Source: Nonlabens spongiae (GTDB taxonomy: Bacteria > Bacteroidota > Bacteroidia > Flavobacteriales > Flavobacteriaceae). From it: DNA of 64,000 nucleotides. Positions 6,121-58,830 of this stretch are shown one piece after another. Below the pieces are notes generated by a model. The model searched no databases, was not told where the DNA came from, and saw nothing but the letters and a program-made list of their open reading frames with translations. Each line of letters opens with the position of its first letter. The stretch's first letter is position 1. The stretch is taken from the NCBI RefSeq assembly GCF_002117125.1, contig NZ_CP019344.1, positions 1,426,001-1,490,000 of the forward strand, given 5' to 3'. Both the position numbers and the translations under genes were made by a program.

Positions 6121-6933
6121 TTAGTCAAATAAGTGTATGGCGGGTAATTTATTCTTTACTTTTCTTATGTCAGGCGAGAAGTAGATATGCATGCGTATAG
6201 TCCAGTCCTGACCGTAGATTCCCGGATTATCTAAAGTCTGTCCAGTAGTGTACATAAGACCAGCTGCAACGGTAAGTCTTGGGTTGATGATATAACCTAA
6301 AGTAATTGTAAGTCGTAAATCTTCAAGATTACTCCCCACTACTTCTTTACCAGTTTGCATAATTAACTCAGTTTCCGGACCTAAATAAAATGCTTTAGGC
6401 TGCAAACTGGGACGATTCAACGGAATTTTGAGTCGGAACATGTACCTCCACCTATTTCTAAAAATAAAATCTGAATCGTCTGCAAAACCTCTGGTCCAGC
6501 GGTGTTCTATCCTCAGGCGGTGATACGCCATGACTGATGAAATAGGTACGGCAAACTGATACTGGTGCCAGATGCGGTATTCTGGAACAAGATTTCTACC
6601 CGTGTCGTCGCTCTCATCGGTATTGAAATTGAGACGGAGTACACCACCTAGGGCAGCATTGAACTTTTTGTTATACAACCAGCCTATCGCATGTCTGTTA
6701 TAGATTTGACCCAGCTGACCCGCAAACGGCATGTCTTCAGACTCTTCAAACCTGAAATGTGTTTGAGCAATCCAGAACAACCTTTTTCCTATGCGTATGT
6801 TCCCGTATGTATTGAACCAGTATTTTGTCTTGGCATCCTTAAGCTTTGTTTCTTCTGGGAGGATGGTGGGTTCTTGCGCTTTCGCGAAAGCGACACCCAA
6901 AACAACAAACGAAATAAAAATAAAATATCTCAT
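6121..6933 (-). CDS. DUF2490 family outer-membrane-like protein
   Basis: 270 residues. A signal peptide (MRYFIFISFVVLGVAFAKAQ) precedes a mature part made of alternating aromatic strands, such as YWFNTYGNIRIGKRLFWIAQ, RLRIEHRW and FRNRWRYMFRL. This is typical of DUF2490, a predicted beta-barrel family without a known substrate. The last residues before the cleavage site (A-F-A-K-A) are encoded by the dispersed 14-bp palindrome. It lies 6 bp downstream of the 628-residue gene and 2 bp upstream of the MORN gene. Confidence 0.8.
   Translation of the reverse strand: MRYFIFISFVVLGVAFAKAQEPTILPEETKLKDAKTKYWFNTYGNIRIGKRLFWIAQTHFRFEESEDMPFAGQLGQIYNRHAIGWLYNKKFNAALGGVLRLNFNTDESDDTGRNLVPEYRIWHQYQFAVPISSVMAYHRLRIEHRWTRGFADDSDFIFRNRWRYMFRLKIPLNRPSLQPKAFYLGPETELIMQTGKEVVGSNLEDLRLTITLGYIINPRLTVAAGLMYTTGQTLDNPGIYGQDWTIRMHIYFSPDIRKVKNKLPAIHLFD
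6878..6891. repeat. GCTTTCGCGAAAGC palindrome inside the DUF2490 signal peptide
   Basis: Perfect copy, read as A-F-A-K-A just before the signal-peptidase site of the DUF2490 protein. Confidence 0.9.
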
Positions 6934-6939
6934 GTGTAA

Positions 6940-8826
6940 TTAGAAATTAAAGGGTGTGTCTACCTGAAACAATCTCAAGACCTCAACGGGATCATCTGCC
7001 TTTCTCAATCTGCGCTCTAAGCGGTAGGTCTCTTCATCACGAAGAGCGACCAGACGCTGGTGCAAGGAGTCGAAAGCCGCGGTAAGCTCGTCAATATCAT
7101 CGCACGAGTTGAGCTGGGCGACTTGCTTCAATAAATAAGGCATGGCTTTCTCATAGTAGGCTTCAGTTATCCTCTTCTTGATCTTGCCATCCATGAGGGT
7201 TGATGTGAAAGGATTGAAGATTTTGTCTTTATATAAATAATCAATCTGCTTTTGCTTCTCGGGCAGTACCGCTAGCGTATCCAGCAAAACATCTACTTTG
7301 TTAAAACATTGCTGAAGGCTTTTTGCTTGGTCAAGTTTGCTGAAGCCTTCAGGCATGTTTGCATACTCGGTAAGTCTTGAAACTAGAAACGGCTTAAGGC
7401 CCTTCATGGCATCAGATTGATTTTGATTGATTGTATTTGCTAGGCTGTCGATCTTACTGCTGAGTCTTTGAGAGTCGGCAATAAGGGCAGATTCTTCGGG
7501 CAAAAATTTAGTCCTCAACTGTTGCGCATCGATGTCGTCTTTCAACAATTCCTTAATCTTGTCCAGATTTTCCTGAACATTTTCCAGAGTGCGCAATACA
7601 TCTTCAAGGGAAACTATTTCTTCGGCGGACTGATTCTCGATCAACGAGTTGGTTTCTAATTCTGGATTCTCAAAAAGTTTTTGAACAATGTTTTCTCGAG
7701 GCTCATAAGTCATGAGATCGCGCTCATAATAATTTACAAGACGTTGAGATGGGATCAAATAAGTTGAATCAATATTCTGAGTTAGGCGATACAGTCCATC
7801 AATTTGTGGATTTGAAAGTTTACGGATCGCCAGCTGTGTGTTGTTCAAGATAATATCAGAGACCTCTTTTGAATCGTAAAATGATCTAGAGATTTGATCT
7901 ATGAGATTTTGTTCCTTCTTTGTTAATGGAAAGTAAGGAATACGCACCTTACCCAAATGAAGGCTTGTTTCCACATTTAACGCCTTCATAATTTCAAGGA
8001 AGCTGTTTTTAAATTCCAGATCACGATCTATCAAATCAATAATACTGCTGCGCACACTGGCGTCTTGACTTTCTTCTGTAAGTTTGATGATATCCAGATA
8101 GTGACGGTCCAAAACAGAATTTTGATAATTCTCTTTATCAGCATCAAACATGGGAATCTGTTGCACGCCGTTTTCCTGAATCACACCGATGAACCGCAGT
8201 AATCCATTTTCAAATTCCCAAGTCTCCTCATCCCGCAAACCATCTTGAGAGATAAAGGACCAGTCTCCCTGTGCAAAACCATTTCTCAACCGGCGCCCTA
8301 TAACCGCTCCATCTGCAGCGTTAATACGTAAGGTTTGGATGGGAACCCCAGCATCATAGGTATTTGAAGAATCATAAATAGTATCAGTAATCTGAGATGA
8401 GGCGATGATTCTTTCTATAACTCGCCACTCGCCGTTAGGTAAACCATTCTTAAAAGATCCTGAAACTATAGATTCCTTACCGTTGAGTTCTGTCACAAAA
8501 CGGTAATTCTTGAACTGTTTCTTATCAGCAAGCTCGTAATTCTCCATCTTAAGAATCCACTCTTTATCTGGTTTCCCATTTTTAAATGACCCAGTAATTT
8601 CAAGTAGTGGGATCTCATTTCCGTCACTTGTGTGGGAGGTGGCATGAAACCTGAATTTTCCGTTTTTAACGGTATCCTTTTGACTTAGATAATAATCATA
8701 TTCCACGACACCAGGATTTTGCAGTAGCACTATAGAGTCAGAATAGGTTCTCTTAACTTGAGAAAAACTGTTGCTAGTAACTAGCAGAACAAAGATGAGC
8801 AGTAAGCATCTAAATTGGGTAGACAT
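6940..8826 (-). CDS. large exported protein with MORN/YwqK-like repeats and a helical C-terminal region
   Basis: 628 residues. Signal peptide 1-23 ends SNSFSQ. Residues of about 50-210 hold repeats of the form G-S-F-K-N-G-x-P-x-x-E-W (GSFKNGKPDKEWILK, GSFKNGLPNGEWRVI, RLRNGFAQGDWSFI), like MORN or YwqK antitoxin-type repeats. From about 230 on it is almost all helical and charged, with likely coiled coil. I do not recognise a catalytic motif. It is first in the presumed operon with the DUF2490 and MORN genes, which suggests a shared envelope role; that is inference. Confidence 0.75.
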   Translation of the reverse strand: MSTQFRCLLLIFVLLVTSNSFSQVKRTYSDSIVLLQNPGVVEYDYYLSQKDTVKNGKFRFHATSHTSDGNEIPLLEITGSFKNGKPDKEWILKMENYELADKKQFKNYRFVTELNGKESIVSGSFKNGLPNGEWRVIERIIASSQITDTIYDSSNTYDAGVPIQTLRINAADGAVIGRRLRNGFAQGDWSFISQDGLRDEETWEFENGLLRFIGVIQENGVQQIPMFDADKENYQNSVLDRHYLDIIKLTEESQDASVRSSIIDLIDRDLEFKNSFLEIMKALNVETSLHLGKVRIPYFPLTKKEQNLIDQISRSFYDSKEVSDIILNNTQLAIRKLSNPQIDGLYRLTQNIDSTYLIPSQRLVNYYERDLMTYEPRENIVQKLFENPELETNSLIENQSAEEIVSLEDVLRTLENVQENLDKIKELLKDDIDAQQLRTKFLPEESALIADSQRLSSKIDSLANTINQNQSDAMKGLKPFLVSRLTEYANMPEGFSKLDQAKSLQQCFNKVDVLLDTLAVLPEKQKQIDYLYKDKIFNPFTSTLMDGKIKKRITEAYYEKAMPYLLKQVAQLNSCDDIDELTAAFDSLHQRLVALRDEETYRLERRLRKADDPVEVLRLFQVDTPFNF

Positions 8827-9317: not shown

Positions 9318-9503
9318 TTATTTTTCAGGTTTGTGATCCCCAGTCATTGCAAGGTCTCGATCACTTTCTATTTTCTGTTTAGTCCTATTTTTTTCAGAAT
9401 CGAGCGCTTCCTTAATTTTCTTATTGAAATGCACTCCATCTCCATGCATATCTGCAGGAGTTCGATAAATAGGATTTTTTCTTTTGTCTTCCTTCTCTGA
9501 CAT
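9318..9503 (-). CDS. small hydrophilic protein, unrecognised
   Basis: 61 residues, no signal or membrane segment, rich in Lys, Asp and Glu, with PADMHGDGVHFNKKIKEAL in the middle. The stop falls directly before a good terminator, and the gene has its own AT-rich upstream region. Both support a real gene. I do not recognise the family. Confidence 0.55.
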   Translation of the reverse strand: MSEKEDKRKNPIYRTPADMHGDGVHFNKKIKEALDSEKNRTKQKIESDRDLAMTGDHKPEK

Positions 9504-9608
9504 AACTTTTTATTTAAAAATAAAGCTATTTGTTCAGTCTTTTGTTCAAATTTTTAAACATTTAGCGTTTTACTGAGAAGAATTGAAAGGCTTTAAATCA
9601 ATAATCTC

Positions 9609-9622
9609 GCTTTCGCGAAAGC
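9609..9622. repeat. GCTTTCGCGAAAGC palindrome, intergenic
   Basis: Perfect copy, flanked by C and G so that the palindrome extends to 16 bp. Confidence 0.9.
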
Positions 9623-9670
9623 GTAACAATCCGAATTAACTCTTGTCGAATAAAATATCTAGGCTTTGAT

Positions 9671-9752
9671 CTCGCTTTCCCTCGTTCACCATGCAGCCTT
9701 CGTAGCCACTTCGGCACAGTAGGCTAGGCATGCCGGCAGCGCAGCGCTAAGC
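9671..9752. repeat. 82-bp GC-rich repeat element, copy A
   Basis: Begins CTCGCTTTCC and ends GCAGCGCTAAGC. It is collinear with 21500-21582 over its whole length, sharing blocks such as CAGCCTTCGTA, CCACTTCGG and GCGCAGCGC. The left end is half of the 14-bp palindrome; the right half is degraded in this copy. Confidence 0.75.
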
Positions 9753-9821
9753 TAAATAAGAATAGAACTACAAAACAACGTATGAAGCAATCTTCAGGAC
9801 TGCATAATTTCGGTATAATTG

Positions 9822-53314: not shown

Positions 53315-53725
53315 CTAGTTGTTTTGAGAACTATGAATCGTAAGCAGTTCAGAGGGTGGGATTTCACCGTGAGGGTAGTTCTTCATAGCATTTAGCAAAC
53401 TGTCCACCACTGACTTACGAAAACCATACTTCAAAGCTACCTCATGAAGAAGCTGAAGCTCGCCATCATTAACTTTACCATCTATATGCATCATCAATAG
53501 TAATTTGTGGAAATGAATAATACGTTTTGTATGGCTTTGCGGTGTTGAAACGGTCAATTCATCGCGGTACCGGATCATACTCATGAGTTCTGACTCCTCT
53601 ATATCCATGCGTTGCGCTATCTTTTTAAGAAACTCCAGTTCTTCTGGTGACAATTTATTATCTGCGAGAGCCATAAGAATCAACTGAGACAACAAATCTA
53701 TTTTTTCTTGGGTAGTATAAGTCAT
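53315..53725 (-). CDS. TerB-like helical protein, last gene of the rhodopsin operon
   Basis: 136 residues, all helical, with two repeats of the TerB pattern (LILMALADNKLSPEELEFLKK and LLLMMHIDGKVNDGELQLLHE, each with D-[NG]-K-[LV]-[SN]-x-x-E). TerB-like domains bind membranes or metal and are tied to stress responses; function unclear. It follows blh by 16 bp on the same strand, so it is probably co-transcribed with the rhodopsin genes. Confidence 0.75.
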   Translation of the reverse strand: MTYTTQEKIDLLSQLILMALADNKLSPEELEFLKKIAQRMDIEESELMSMIRYRDELTVSTPQSHTKRIIHFHKLLLMMHIDGKVNDGELQLLHEVALKYGFRKSVVDSLLNAMKNYPHGEIPPSELLTIHSSQNN

Positions 53726-53741
53726 AAGGGGTTGCTATAAA

Positions 53742-54602
53742 TCAAGTGGCTTGTTTATCGCCATACAGTTTGTGAATGATGATTATATGAGGAACAGTTA
53801 CAATTATAGCGATAAGCAGCGCAAAATGATAGAAATAAGTTTGATTATAAGTTAACACGTACCCAATTGCAATCCCTAAAAGAGATATCATGTAAATAGG
53901 TGCTGCATCTTTCACATATTTCAGCCAGGTTTTGTTTTCCTTATATAGACGCTTCATTTGACTGCTAAGGCTAGGCAAACTGTGCCAGAAAACAAAAAAC
54001 ACGGTAAACGAGGTAAACAAATTAAGCCCATAGAAAAGCAATGCCATAAATGCTAAGTTGATTATCTGGCTCACGGCGACTTTAACTGACACCTGTTTTT
54101 TCAACAGTGTAGCACCTAAATAAATAAGATACAAAAGGCCCGAGGCAATAGTTAACGAAATAAGCAAGATTGAAGAGTTTTCTGTACCCGTGAGATCGAA
54201 TAGTACGATATCAAATTCTGCCGCGTTTAAAACAAACATCATCAGGAAAATGAGAAGCCCCAGTGACAACTTGTGAATCCAGGAAAATGATAAACCGTCA
54301 GACTCATAAAGTTCTTCACCAAAATGATAAGCACTGACCAAGACAAACAAGAGCACGCATATAAAAGGAGAAATGAAATATGCAGCAAAAAATAATAACC
54401 CAACCAAAACATAATTGATGATCAAGTATTTCCATTTTACTCCGGTAACCTTTTTATATATAACAAGGTCGTTAGACCCATGTAAAATACCGATGCTCAA
54501 GATCAAAAAAAGATTCAGGAAAATCACTAGTTGATAATTCATGAATTTCAACTCAGAGAATTGATAGATTACAAAAACCAGTATTGAGGCAATGAACTTC
54601 AA
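53742..54602 (-). CDS. blh: Brp/Blh-family beta-carotene 15,15'-dioxygenase
   Basis: 286 residues, about eight or nine membrane helices. It cleaves beta-carotene into two retinals, the chromophore for the rhodopsin encoded two genes upstream. The family's histidine sites are visible: HGSNDLVIY (about 42), SAYHFGEELY, FWHSLPSL and TVPHIIIIHKLY. Its ATG overlaps the DUF2254 stop (ATGA), so rhodopsin, DUF2254 and blh form one translationally coupled operon. No carotenoid synthesis genes are in the window. Confidence 0.92.
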   Translation of the reverse strand: MKFIASILVFVIYQFSELKFMNYQLVIFLNLFLILSIGILHGSNDLVIYKKVTGVKWKYLIINYVLVGLLFFAAYFISPFICVLLFVLVSAYHFGEELYESDGLSFSWIHKLSLGLLIFLMMFVLNAAEFDIVLFDLTGTENSSILLISLTIASGLLYLIYLGATLLKKQVSVKVAVSQIINLAFMALLFYGLNLFTSFTVFFVFWHSLPSLSSQMKRLYKENKTWLKYVKDAAPIYMISLLGIAIGYVLTYNQTYFYHFALLIAIIVTVPHIIIIHKLYGDKQAT

Positions 54603-55756
54603 ATGTTGACTGGGATTCTAATAAACGAGAGTTCAGGAAAAAGGGTTCGTAAGTGGCTAACGTGTGATTTTAAAACCTGATTTAAGACGGGATCGTCTTT
54701 CATGTAATAATACATCTCGTGGTAAACGGTTTCAAAAAGGTTTTTCCTTTCGATGGTATTAAAAACAATTATCTGATTTTCAATCCCCTCGCTATATACA
54801 TTATAATCTTCAAATTTAAACCTATTAATCATCAATTGTTGAAGAAAATCAACAGCATTTAGAGCTGTCCCAGGATCATTAATAGCTGGAGAACAGGCTT
54901 TAACCCCTACCTCAACTAAGTGTTTAACATTGGTTTCAAACACATCTGAACACACCGTATGGTCTATAACAAAATGATCCTTGATTTTCTCAATCTCTTC
55001 CTCGCTGAGCTCTCTACTTGATTTAAGAAAAACCTCATTTTCTAAGATAAACGCTCCCTTGAACTTGACGATCTGGATGGACACATCCATTTTTTTTGCA
55101 TCCTTGTATAATTCGCTAACATTGAAGTCATGTAGATATCCACAACTCCCAGAATTGACTATTTCATGATATAAATCTTCACCTTCATAGTTAGAAAAGA
55201 ACTCCTCTTTTGATTTAAACTTCTCTAAGTCTTTATTTGCTTTTTCATATACTTCATCGATAATATAATTGATGTGAATACTTTGAGAAACACTGTGTAT
55301 GAAATAAATAAAAAGGAGAACACAAGCCATGGCAAAAATAATCCCTAGTCCAGACGCCACAGTTGGAAAATAACCACCATTGTCATTTGTCAAACTCAAA
55401 CTCATCACCATGGAATACAAGATCGTACCACTCGTAAATCCTAAAATCAACTGATGGTGCCTCTCCGAAAGTATTAGAGGAATTAAGCGTGGCGAATAGT
55501 TGTTAATATTTCTATTCAAAACATTCATGACCATGGTATAACTAAAAATGGTCAGGGTAAATATCCCACCTATTATGAATGAGAAAATATACTGCGAGTC
55601 CTTTTTATCACTGACCGCGAGCGCATCAGTTAAGCTGTATTCTGCATAATCTATTTCTATGAGATTCATGAGAATAGCAAGTACGACAAAGCACAGCGCT
55701 ATTATCGAAGGTAATAGCGCTATGCTCTTATATAATCTTTTAAGATATACCAGCAT
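54599..55756 (-). CDS. DUF2254 membrane protein, coupled to the rhodopsin gene
   Basis: 385 residues. Four membrane segments (about 11-35, 56-80, 102-122, 134-154) and a soluble C-terminal half (165-385). The family signature A-x-S-P-A-x-N-D-P-x-T-A appears as KACSPAINDPGTALNAV at 287-303. NNYSPRLIPLILSERHH after helix 2 is also conserved with the paralogue at 56760. DUF2254 has no known function. It shares one base with the rhodopsin stop and four with blh. Placement between pump and chromophore enzyme suggests a role in the same process, perhaps in ion movement or membrane sensing (inference). Confidence 0.88.
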   Translation of the reverse strand: MLVYLKRLYKSIALLPSIIALCFVVLAILMNLIEIDYAEYSLTDALAVSDKKDSQYIFSFIIGGIFTLTIFSYTMVMNVLNRNINNYSPRLIPLILSERHHQLILGFTSGTILYSMVMSLSLTNDNGGYFPTVASGLGIIFAMACVLLFIYFIHSVSQSIHINYIIDEVYEKANKDLEKFKSKEEFFSNYEGEDLYHEIVNSGSCGYLHDFNVSELYKDAKKMDVSIQIVKFKGAFILENEVFLKSSRELSEEEIEKIKDHFVIDHTVCSDVFETNVKHLVEVGVKACSPAINDPGTALNAVDFLQQLMINRFKFEDYNVYSEGIENQIIVFNTIERKNLFETVYHEMYYYMKDDPVLNQVLKSHVSHLRTLFPELSFIRIPVNI

Positions 55757-56577
55757 TATTTAGTCTGCACGGAATCCTGACCTATCAGGTTCAACATTTG
55801 TTGCGCAGGAATATATCCAGAGGCAGCAGATTGTTTAATGGCGATGTAAGTTATCATAAGGCCATAAACTGCTTTTGAACTGATGTCTGCGATGGTAAAT
55901 AATAGTTGTCTCCATACGACTCCTTCAGCACTATTAGCGATCCATGGAATTAAGTATGCTATAGGATAAAGAGTCCAAGCAAACATCATTAACCAAAATA
56001 CTTTAGTGATTGTTGACCCAGCTCCACCCAGCATGGTTTTACGGCTGGTGAAAATCTTAGTTCCGACAATCCAATTCATTGCCACAAAAAATGCCGTACT
56101 TATTGCACCCCAGACCAACAATTGATCAATGCTTTCCACTTCATAGAGCTGACCCACATATCCCGTAATGATCATACCCCATGCAAAAAATATGAGCGCT
56201 GCGGCTGTTTTAAACAATGCCGCTCCTCTTATATTCAATACAATTAGTAATTGAGTCAAAAGACATGGAATGGTCACCATCCAGTTCACGTAACGGTATC
56301 CATTGCTGAAAGTAAGATCTGTAGGTTCATAGACACGGCCATTAAAGGCAAAAGCATCAGTCCACATCGTAGCCTGACTGAACAGAATCAACCCTGCACT
56401 TACCATAACGATACATGACAAAGCAGTCGCAACCCGATATTTGGGAGCTACGAATCTAGAAACGAGAATAAAAAAAACGAGTGCGGCGAGATGCGCTCCC
56501 ACACCCATGGTCAGCAAATGATCGATAGCTTCAAATTGCCCCACGGTATATTCAAAAAGAGATTCAATATTTTTCAT
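55756..56577 (-). CDS. light-driven inward chloride pump (NTQ rhodopsin, ClR type)
   Basis: 273 residues, seven helices. The helix-C motif is YRYVNWMVTIPCLLTQLL: Asn98, Thr102 and Gln109 form the NTQ triad of bacterial chloride pumps. Proton pumps have DTE and sodium pumps NDQ at these sites. The retinal Schiff-base lysine is Lys235 in ADISSKAVYG, with Asp231 before it. Leu106 occupies the position that tunes proteorhodopsins toward green. WTLYPIAYLIP in helix F lines the retinal pocket. From memory, the numbering and much of the sequence match the Nonlabens marinus pump. It is first in an operon with DUF2254, blh and a TerB-like gene. Confidence 0.96.
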   Translation of the reverse strand: MKNIESLFEYTVGQFEAIDHLLTMGVGAHLAALVFFILVSRFVAPKYRVATALSCIVMVSAGLILFSQATMWTDAFAFNGRVYEPTDLTFSNGYRYVNWMVTIPCLLTQLLIVLNIRGAALFKTAAALIFFAWGMIITGYVGQLYEVESIDQLLVWGAISTAFFVAMNWIVGTKIFTSRKTMLGGAGSTITKVFWLMMFAWTLYPIAYLIPWIANSAEGVVWRQLLFTIADISSKAVYGLMITYIAIKQSAASGYIPAQQMLNLIGQDSVQTK

Positions 56578-56759
56578 AATTTTTTATTAATCTACAAAAT
56601 ACCATCTTAACTTTTTACATATGGGTTAAGAAATTGTGAATTCACTTAATATTTCGTTACCTCAAGAGTTCGTAATTAGACTTAAAATATTAAAATGGAC
56701 TTAATTGTAGCCACATTGTTTTTACATAATACTTAACTTGTCCTAAGAAGATAACTTTG

Positions 56760-58049
56760 ATGAAAATCCTAACGAGAATCAAGTCCTTTTATAATGCGAC
56801 CACCAGCAGCATTGCCTTTTATCCAGTTCTTATAGCCATAGCTGCCATATTACTAGCATCAGGAGCAAAAATTGCTGAGGGAGCTGGAGTTAGTGAATTA
56901 ATAAGTGAGCATGCACCTTTACTGATCCTTCATGATGCTGACACTGCAAGAAATCTACTCACAACCTTCATCGCTGGAGGTATAAGTATACTAGTGTTCT
57001 CCTTCTCCATGGTGATGCTTCTTCTCAATCAGGCTGCAACAAATTACAGTCCGCGTATTTTACCCAACCTTATTTCAGAAAAAAAACATCAATTTGTATT
57101 AGGGATCTTTTTTGGAACCATTCTCTACAGTATTATGATCGTACTAGATGTGGATCCATCGGGAAATGACTACCAGCTACCCAGCTTCTCAATTATAATT
57201 TCTATTGCTATAGCTCTCACGGCACTTACCGCATTTATTTACTTTATCCACAGCATTTCTTCCAGTATACAAATCAATCATATAATGCGCGAGATATTTA
57301 CGCTTTCGCGAAAGCATCTACAAATAATCATCGACGGTCAAAACGATCATCCAGGATTTGACAATCTCGAGTCATGGTACGAATACAAAACACCACAAGC
57401 GGGAACATTTCAAAACTTAAGCACCACCGCACTAAAGGAATTTATGCAAACTTCTAAGAACAAAATGCACGTTTTATCTTTAAAAGGCTCATATCTAAGA
57501 GATGAAGACATCATCTTCAAAACCAAAAATAAAGTGTCAGACGAGGATCTGGAGCAGCTTTATAAAAATTTCAATTTCAGCAATACAGAACTGGTGAGTG
57601 ACAATTATATCTTAGGTGTCAAGCAAATTGCCGAAATAGGAATCAAAGCTATGTCACCAGGGGTAAACGACCCTGGTACAGCGGTGGACACTCTAAATTA
57701 TCTAACGGAACTTCTAGCATTACGAATGTTAAAGAACGATACAAATGTCATCTGCAATGATGAAGAGGAACCTATTTTGAGCCTAAACGATCTTGAATTT
57801 TCAGACATGATCTACCACGTGTTAGCTCCTTATAGGCAGTACTGCAAACATGATTTTACAGTTATGTATAAAATTTTTGACATGCTCTTATATTTGATGA
57901 CGGTAAAAGCTGTAAATCATAAATTTTACGAGATCATAAGGTATCAAACTAAATTATGCCTTATGGATGTCGAGTCTAATATGGAGAACAAAGAAGATCT
58001 CAAAAAACTTCAGCGAATAGCAGAAAAAATATCTGGTCATGAAAATTAA
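56760..58049 (+). CDS. DUF2254 membrane protein, divergent from the rhodopsin gene
   Basis: 429 residues from the ATG at 56760; the TTG before it is not needed. Built like the other DUF2254 protein: four N-terminal membrane segments, TNYSPRILPNLISEKKH after helix 2, and the signature KAMSPGVNDPGTAVDTL at about 297-313. Clearly a paralogue of the gene at 54599 but diverged. It shares a 182-bp divergent promoter region with the rhodopsin gene and overlaps the esterase gene by 11 bp. A palindrome copy encodes L-S-R-K without a length change relative to the paralogue. Confidence 0.88.
   Translation: MKILTRIKSFYNATTSSIAFYPVLIAIAAILLASGAKIAEGAGVSELISEHAPLLILHDADTARNLLTTFIAGGISILVFSFSMVMLLLNQAATNYSPRILPNLISEKKHQFVLGIFFGTILYSIMIVLDVDPSGNDYQLPSFSIIISIAIALTALTAFIYFIHSISSSIQINHIMREIFTLSRKHLQIIIDGQNDHPGFDNLESWYEYKTPQAGTFQNLSTTALKEFMQTSKNKMHVLSLKGSYLRDEDIIFKTKNKVSDEDLEQLYKNFNFSNTELVSDNYILGVKQIAEIGIKAMSPGVNDPGTAVDTLNYLTELLALRMLKNDTNVICNDEEEPILSLNDLEFSDMIYHVLAPYRQYCKHDFTVMYKIFDMLLYLMTVKAVNHKFYEIIRYQTKLCLMDVESNMENKEDLKKLQRIAEKISGHEN
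57302..57315. repeat. GCTTTCGCGAAAGC palindrome inside the second DUF2254 gene
   Basis: Perfect copy, read in a third frame (L-S-R-K). The flanking helix aligns without gap with the paralogue at 54599. Confidence 0.9.
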
Positions 58050-58830
58050 GAGATTGGTTTTACTTTTTTGCTTTCTGATATGCCTTTCAAATTTAAGTCC
58101 AGCTCAGGAAGTGGTGGTGGATTCTTTAAATTACAATGGCACTCCAAGGAAAATAAGAATATATCTACCATCACAGAACATAGATTTTTCAAAATCTAAG
58201 ATTATCTATATGCTTGATGCTCAAAATCTCTTTGACGATGAAACAAGCTACGCAGGAGAATGGGAGGTAGACGAAGCTATTGACAACAATATAAATGTGA
58301 ATCAAAAACCAGTTGTCGTAGGAATTGATCATGGTAATGCTGAGCGTATCAATGAACTCACTCCTTACGCACATAAAAAGTATGGTGGAGGAAAAGCAGA
58401 AGAATTCCTAGTTTTTCTCATCAATGAAGTAATGCCCCACATAGAACGCAAATTTCAATTTCAACACTCAAGAATAAATACCGTAATTGCAGGGAGTTCC
58501 CTGGGTGGATTATTTGCACATTACGCACTATTTTCTGAACCTAAAGTATTTAGTGCTGCTGGTGTATTCTCTCCTTCTTATTGGTTCTCAGATAAGATAT
58601 ATCGGCTCTCCAAGGATACAATAATCACCCTACCCACTTTTATATACCTAAGTGGTGGAGATTCAGAGAGTGAAAAGCTTGTCCAAGAAATGAGGTCCAT
58701 GCAGTCTCTTTTAGATACAAAAGAGAATATGACTACCAAAATAACGATAATTCCAGGTGGAGAACATAATGAAAAACAATGGAGAGAGTCATTTCCCTCT
58801 TTTCTAGAAACCTTGGAGATTAAGAATTGA
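58039..58830 (+). CDS. exported alpha/beta-hydrolase esterase (enterochelin-esterase/esterase D-like)
   Basis: 263 residues. Signal peptide 1-22 (ending LSPAQE). The nucleophile elbow GSSLGG is at about residue 153 (VIAGSSLGGLFAHYALF), the catalytic Asp likely in YLSGGDSES, and the His in IPGGEHNEKQW. The family hydrolyses esters of varied acids; the substrate is unknown. It overlaps the DUF2254 gene upstream and, head-on, the DUF2147 gene by 11 bp. Co-transcription with DUF2254 is likely. Confidence 0.85.
   Translation: MKIKRLVLLFCFLICLSNLSPAQEVVVDSLNYNGTPRKIRIYLPSQNIDFSKSKIIYMLDAQNLFDDETSYAGEWEVDEAIDNNINVNQKPVVVGIDHGNAERINELTPYAHKKYGGGKAEEFLVFLINEVMPHIERKFQFQHSRINTVIAGSSLGGLFAHYALFSEPKVFSAAGVFSPSYWFSDKIYRLSKDTIITLPTFIYLSGGDSESEKLVQEMRSMQSLLDTKENMTTKITIIPGGEHNEKQWRESFPSFLETLEIKN

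Follow-up and report, generated by a model that had tools for sequence, protein, structure and literature searches.

In the window, a stretch of 64,000 nucleotides from the genome of Nonlabens spongiae (contig NZ_CP019344.1, positions 1,426,001 to 1,490,000), a rhodopsin gene of the chloride-pumping NTQ class, here called ClR, is followed directly by a gene of the membrane protein family DUF2254, here called DUFa. From comparison of this locus with its relatives, we consider it very probable that the two genes make up a conserved unit, in many cases together with the beta-carotene dioxygenase gene blh, and that this unit moves and is inherited as a cassette. Taken jointly with the further proposal that DUFa is a passive ion pathway in the membrane of the pump, the reading becomes a tentative one, to which we assign a probability of roughly 0.4.

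Sixteen distinct NTQ loci were readable after removal of repeats (equal contigs): eight from the window's genus, one from a Pricia metagenome-assembled genome, one from Aequorivita and six from the Lewinella/Saprospiraceae group. A DUF2254 gene is the next gene on the same strand in 15 of the 16, at a distance of -1 to +7 base pairs (bp) in 14 cases and of +74 bp in the remaining one; start codons were assigned mechanically. As controls we used 14 distinct rhodopsin genes of the NDQ (sodium-pump) type and 40 of the DTE (proton-pump) type, with 1.5 kilobases (kb) on each side; three of the 40 DTE loci were shortened by contig ends, and one locus with an unreadable motif (L040) was not counted. 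No DUF2254 gene was found within 1.5 kb of any of the 14 NDQ or 40 DTE genes, some of which are in the same genomes as a ClR. As background, any DUF2254 gene occurs in 43 of 149 Flavobacteriaceae genomes, in 41 of them as a single copy. The placement of DUF2254 directly behind ClR is far beyond chance.

The original prediction had proposed DUF2254 as a partner of the pump, arguing both from the tight gene arrangement and from the presence of two DUF2254 copies on either side of one promoter region. The first argument stood: the arrangement is not peculiar to this strain, being a steady feature of NTQ loci in two bacterial groups, and it was not matched at the control rhodopsin genes. The second argument fell away, as described below. 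Searches for more loci covered 395 genomes of the phylum, in which only the window's own ClR was found; 248 genomes of the order of G422, which gave two NTQ loci that were in the set before, together with three NDQ genes at 39-42% identity; plasmids, which gave three distant rhodopsins only; and the genera of G422 (5 of 21) and G424 (1 of 28), which gave no new NTQ locus. NTQ rhodopsins also occur in alphaproteobacteria, which lie outside the present sample.

The features of the locus, in window coordinates, are as follows.

55756..56577, minus strand: ClR, NTQ chloride-pump rhodopsin by class, 273 amino acids (PF01036; N98, T102, Q109, K235)
54599..55756, minus strand: DUFa, DUF2254 protein of 385 amino acids with four predicted transmembrane helices and a cytosolic domain (PF10011, 212.5 bits)
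53742..54602, minus strand: blh, beta-carotene 15,15'-dioxygenase, the optional third gene of the cassette (PF15461, BCD/Blh; TIGR03753, 134.5 bits)
53315..53725, minus strand: TerB-like gene, a resident flank judging by gene order in relatives (PF05099)
56760 (or 56757)..58049, plus strand: DUFb, the resident core DUF2254 gene, a flank outside the module (PF10011, 277.9 bits; subfamily B)
58039..58830, plus strand: esterase gene, a flank outside the module (PF00756)
56578..56759, no strand: intergenic region of 182 bp between ClR and DUFb, the junction of cassette and resident sequence by comparison with relatives
56635..56640, minus strand: TTCACA element, chosen by eye, at -63 relative to the start codon of ClR

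The start of DUFa shares one base with the stop of ClR, and blh overlaps DUFa by four bases. The TerB-like gene lies 16 bp beyond blh, and the esterase gene overlaps DUFb by 11 bases. All of the genes that had been described here from the letters alone are present as open reading frames in the families then named, and the TerB, Blh, rhodopsin, esterase and both DUF2254 matches lie above the Pfam cut-offs (28.8 bits for PF10011), as the TIGR03753 match does above its own (95.25 bits). Alignment confirmed the motif N98/T102/Q109 and the retinal-binding lysine K235, and the 182-bp divergent region is as described provided that DUFb starts at the ATG at 56760. Residues 1-269 of ClR match the Nonlabens marinus S1-08 ClR (PDB 5fjg; PMC4999514) with 453 bits and an E value of 2.6e-135; the two belong to the same rhodopsin class, with N, T, Q and the retinal lysine kept. 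By class, as judged from the motif and this close relation to a characterised pump, ClR is predicted to be a light-driven inward chloride pump. The locus that we take to be that of the N. marinus protein (G154) also has DUFa next to the pump gene, whereas the accessible part of the published study treats the pump in isolation and does not discuss any neighbouring gene. ClR is the sole PF01036 match in the window's genome, and an Rfam scan of the window gave nothing at the gathering thresholds.

Within the window's genus, an NTQ rhodopsin is present in eight of 23 genomes, and DUFa is present in the same eight. The other 15 genomes, three of which are less than 90% complete, have no DUFa; 11 carry the core DUF2254 only and four carry none. 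Three further rhodopsin matches, in G154, G155 and G164, came without loci and were not counted by motif; none of them has a DUF2254 match on its contig at a distance of up to 25 kb. A protein collection was compared through its best 120 of 385 rhodopsin clusters (118 usable) and best 120 of 173 DUFa clusters (119 usable). For 35 of the 118 rhodopsin clusters there is a DUFa cluster from a contig of exactly equal size in bases, and chance matches after shifting the sizes by up to 50 bases averaged 0.35, with a maximum of 2. Five of the 118 are NDQ-type, none of which matched a DUFa contig. Named matching pairs include Nonlabens, Pricia, Leeuwenhoekiella, Gangjinia, Psychroserpens and Flavimarina. 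An equal contig falls short of proving that two genes are adjacent; on contigs of up to 10 kb, where the same contig comes close to meaning adjacency, 13 of 54 rhodopsin clusters matched.

Grouped by immediate neighbours, the ClR-DUFa loci stand in about nine flanking contexts, some of which share single gene families (clusters c9/c10 and c19/c20). Pairwise distances of ClR and of DUFa are correlated, with r of 0.84 for 42 pairs, 0.68 for the 33 flavobacterial pairs and 0.95 for the eight genus genomes; 0, 0 and 2 of 5000 permutations, respectively, reached the observed value. Species history contributes to this correlation. The trees of the two proteins hold identical groups of nine, eleven and five rows; the pair tree used 28 of the 35 contig-matched pairs, with two left out for fragments and five as repeats or the window's own locus. 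The Aequorivita locus (L009) was omitted from the correlation because its rhodopsin frame is broken and only 36 residues could be read. That NTQ rhodopsin, at L009:10001-10830, consists of two overlapping frames with a break near codon 36, followed by an open DUFa and an open blh, and is either a pseudogene or a sequence error.

These observations bear on the possibility that the two genes have no joint function and are linked only by common descent and by hitch-hiking together on a cassette that moves. The movement of the cassette and the relatedness of the loci would both allow it, but across about nine contexts and two groups the DUFa frame stays intact and close to ClR, with one absence in 16, while blh comes and goes. 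We therefore regard hitch-hiking as very improbable.

In a quick tree of DUF2254 proteins, DUFa and DUFb, which are 31% identical across 299 aligned residues, fall into two subfamilies separated by a branch with a support of 100 in the Shimodaira-Hasegawa-like approximate likelihood ratio test (SH-aLRT). All 48 rhodopsin-linked rows are in the subfamily of DUFa; 15 were linked by locus and the rest by a matching contig, and some are the same protein twice. Proteins under about 340-350 amino acids and the broken second copy of G144 were left out. All trees here are quick ones with SH-aLRT support only, and long branches were flagged in the DUF2254 tree. In Neolewinella maritima, ClR occurs without DUFa, and the sole DUF2254 gene of the genome is of the core type. 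The N. maritima ClR is flanked by gene clusters that are also found in DUFa-bearing relatives, and DUFa has therefore probably been lost there.

The idea that DUFa is exclusive to ClR was rejected. Among 397 Flavobacteriaceae genomes, in which DUFa relatives were sought at E values of at most 1e-60 and rhodopsins in the same sample, nine have a DUFa relative and eight of these have no NTQ rhodopsin. Six of the eight relatives fall in clades without linked rows, and two (G144 and G349) lie inside a clade that holds linked rows. At L138, in a genome that has no matching rhodopsin, the DUFa relative (6917-8110) has neighbours of the BLUF, ferritin-like and DUF892 families (L138:5162-6903).

The surroundings of DUFb have a different history. 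Twelve of the 18 other core DUF2254 loci of the genus have the order HSP20, TerB and then, divergently, the core DUF2254 gene; four have an esterase gene between TerB and the core gene, and in two no TerB was found. The core gene is within two genes of TerB in 16 of these 18 relatives, and the two share a short divergent region, as judged from visible upstream start codons. The window keeps the relatives' order, with ClR, DUFa and blh set between TerB and the core DUF2254 gene; DUFb and TerB are therefore residents, and TerB has come to lie just behind blh. By this comparison of gene orders, the ClR-DUFa-blh cassette is shown as an insertion between the two in the window's genome. TerB was rejected as a member of the module, being divergent from the core DUF2254 gene in the relatives. 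Core-type DUF2254 genes are present in 19 of the 23 genus genomes, and one adjoins the NTQ rhodopsin in one of the eight ClR-bearing genomes, the window's own. The flanking of the pump by two DUF2254 copies, which had been taken to make chance less likely, is thus incidental: DUFb belongs to the other subfamily and is a resident of the TerB neighbourhood.

Nine contig sizes occur in both the DUFa and the DUFb cluster lists, and close relatives may share the arrangement with DUFb beside ClR. The clusters P0264, P0079 and P0213, of the rhodopsin, DUFa and DUFb types, all have a contig size of exactly 7,451 bases, although the DUFb protein is only 43% identical; this is a hint that the three genes may also occur together in another, more distant genome. 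The sequence CGCTTTCGCGAAAGCG occurs upstream of ClR in three genomes (L148, L149 and L154), and its first 15 letters are found inside DUFb at window positions 57301-57315.

The neighbours of DUF2254 genes also raise the question of whether DUFa could be an independent membrane or envelope stress protein, co-transcribed with ClR for the same conditions (light and starvation) and acting on neither the pump nor the ion. Core DUF2254 genes lie close to TerB in the 16 relatives mentioned and near HSP20 in 12 of the 18, and DUFa relatives in genomes without ClR have as neighbours, at L138, ferritin-like and DUF892 genes and, at L140, genes for YtxH and DUF2383. According to the accessible part of PMC4831467, the three rhodopsin genes of strain YIK11, the NTQ gene included, rise in light and at low nutrients without a growth benefit, which would suit a stress protein and also fits a conditional role of DUFa. 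Against it, DUF2254 is specific to the NTQ genes and absent within 1.5 kb of the NDQ and DTE genes, though all three YIK11 genes respond alike. We consider this explanation doubtful.

Blh is a less constant partner of ClR than DUFa is, with blh standing behind DUFa in eight of the 16 ClR loci. For lycopene cyclase, the window's genome gave a single strong match (4.9e-58) besides two weak matches; the family also matches in 10 of 14 control genomes, and only the strong match is informative. With that match, a supply of beta-carotene for Blh is plausible.

Upstream of ClR, the hexamer TTCACA occurs 55-63 bases before the start codon in all eight genus loci, whereas none of the eight others has it in the 120 bases before the start; simple shuffles predict 0.77 of 16 loci. 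It was sought upstream of 11 of the 14 NDQ and 19 of the 40 DTE genes and found in 0 and 1 of these, respectively. The hexamer was first picked by eye, and for that reason the suggestion that the cassette brings its own control region is only a lead. The classical Bacteroidota promoter has the form TTG-N17-23-TAnnTTTG. No full match to it was found within 300 bases upstream of ClR in the 16 loci. Several DTE rhodopsin genes of the genus (for example at L033, L080, L082 and L091) have in common inverted repeats resembling TTGTTTAA / TTAAACAA in their upstream regions, and such repeats were not seen by eye upstream of NDQ or NTQ genes.

The predicted structure of DUFa has four transmembrane helices (TM1 to TM4) and a cytosolic domain, with a pLDDT (predicted local distance difference test score) of 90. 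Across the 48 linked rows, the most frequent residue of a position has an average share of 0.81 in TM2, 0.73 in TM3, 0.72 in TM4 and 0.86 in the loop of residues 85-99, compared with 0.56 in TM1 and 0.39-0.56 in the cytosolic domain. In TM2, residues 64-82 form the signature GxFTLTxFxYTMVMNVLxR. The strong conservation of the membrane part and the confident model favour an activity of DUFa in the membrane that is separate from the pump. In a Pfam scan at an E value of 0.001, PF10011 is the one family that DUFa matches. With Foldseek at E 0.001, neither the complete model nor its membrane part found a match, a PDB sequence search returned none up to E 1, and the VIA structural matches are within the range common for helical bundles, with no bestrophin among the matches listed. 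A role for DUFa as a sensor of voltage or chloride, signalling through its cytosolic domain, seems to us quite unlikely: Pfam gives no known signalling domain, residues 187-274 are among the least conserved (0.39), and the structural match is in the common range.

Among the rhodopsin genes that were read, DUFa stands next to those for chloride pumps but not to those for sodium or proton pumps, and for this reason we favour a passive ion pathway. In this proposal, ClR would drive chloride inward in the light and the cell interior would turn more negative. DUFa, as a separate and probably gated passive pathway in the same membrane, would allow chloride to leave the cell or a counter-ion to enter it. 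The chloride import driven by light could then be put to use as ion or turgor work, and overload would be relieved. DUFa would not be required for the folding or turnover of ClR. N. marinus ClR pumps in E. coli from a plasmid without a named partner, according to the accessible part of PMC4999514. Since the pump works alone there, N. maritima lacks DUFa and eight genomes have DUFa relatives without ClR, an obligate role of DUFa in folding, as a chaperone for instance, is unlikely, and DUFa would have an activity of its own.

Direct binding of DUFa to ClR, as an accessory subunit that tunes, anchors or clusters the pump, is the other explanation that the gene arrangement invites. Genes that overlap or nearly do so, as in 14 of the 15 loci, are common for subunits made together, and the correlated distances point the same way. 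The N. marinus pump, however, was expressed, crystallised and assayed in E. coli with no partner named in the accessible text (PMC4999514), and N. maritima manages without DUFa, DUFa-type copies occur without ClR, and DUFa diverges much faster than ClR. We hold a subunit role to be unlikely. More of a long shot is that ClR and DUFa assemble into a bacterial channel-pump controlled by light and encoded by two genes, with a DUF2254 pore gated by the photocycle or by the chloride gradient; if true, this would be the first assigned function of the DUF2254 family.

Several points weigh against the passive ion pathway, or against the linkage on which it builds. No solved channel or transporter clearly resembles the predicted DUFa model, and conserved polar helices also occur in enzymes and scaffold proteins. 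Mean identity over the 42 pairs is 0.43 for DUFa and 0.71 for ClR, which does not suggest a rigid complex. The relatives without ClR mean that the DUFa subfamily does not serve rhodopsins exclusively. In four genus genomes, ClR-DUFa and an NDQ gene belong to one cluster, which places the NDQ gene 2.5-5.3 kb from DUFa, and DUFa could serve both pumps there. The loci share ancestry, so that the linkage counts are a pattern and not independent trials. Among the best-120 lists, 83 of the 118 rhodopsin clusters have no DUFa contig match, for which absence of DUFa, short contigs, clustering and the extent of the lists cannot be told apart as causes.

To our knowledge, what bacteria gain from pumping chloride inward is an open question, and NTQ rhodopsins have been studied as isolated pumps. 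A membrane partner that is constant yet dispensable would be a concrete handle on this question, and linkage to ClR would give DUF2254, a membrane family without an assigned function, its first functional setting. Bestrhodopsins are algal fusion proteins in which a rhodopsin is tied to bestrophin, a membrane protein of ion flow. In contrast to such fusions (compare the accessible part of PMC12291454), ClR and DUFa are separate genes, and DUFa has no family match beyond its own. The nearest parallel to the ClR-DUFa pair is provided by the flotillin-associated rhodopsins, which, in the accessible part of PMC10308929, likewise have a constant membrane-associated neighbour on the same strand, with a 16-nucleotide spacer, in distant genomes. 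They differ in being relatives of proteorhodopsin with DTT, DTL or DNI motifs and flotillin as the partner, where here an NTQ rhodopsin is paired with DUF2254; a flotillin/SPFH model gave no match among eight window proteins scanned around ClR.

DUFa and DUFb are plain members of the PF10011 family, which the accessible part of PMC11184937 treats for predicted knots or slipknots, without a function or a link to rhodopsins. We found no literature linking DUF2254 (or COG4325 and the Pfam and InterPro accessions) with rhodopsins in a search that left most subscription journals outside; other papers listed for the two accessions concern Plasmodium and its relatives, where the accession string may belong to different identifiers. 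Among the papers listed for NTQ rhodopsins and their genomic surroundings, neither the titles nor the opening lines of the abstracts name a ClR-DUF2254 pair, and in PMC4831467 the terms "operon" and "gene cluster" appear nowhere but in the reference list.

Two other gene types recur near these rhodopsins. Five Lewinella-type loci (L005-L008 and L010) have a gene for 963-983 amino acids on the opposite strand behind ClR or ClR-DUFa (cluster c25); on L008:12037-14958 it has phosphotransferase, M23 and class-III aminotransferase domains in Pfam. At L002:8791-9192 and 9349-9771, genes for BLUF blue-light sensors (PF04940) accompany the rhodopsin genes of the sodium-pump and chloride-pump types, standing between the two or next to them, and genes clustering with these BLUF genes are similarly placed at the G149, G157 and G163 loci (L150-L152).

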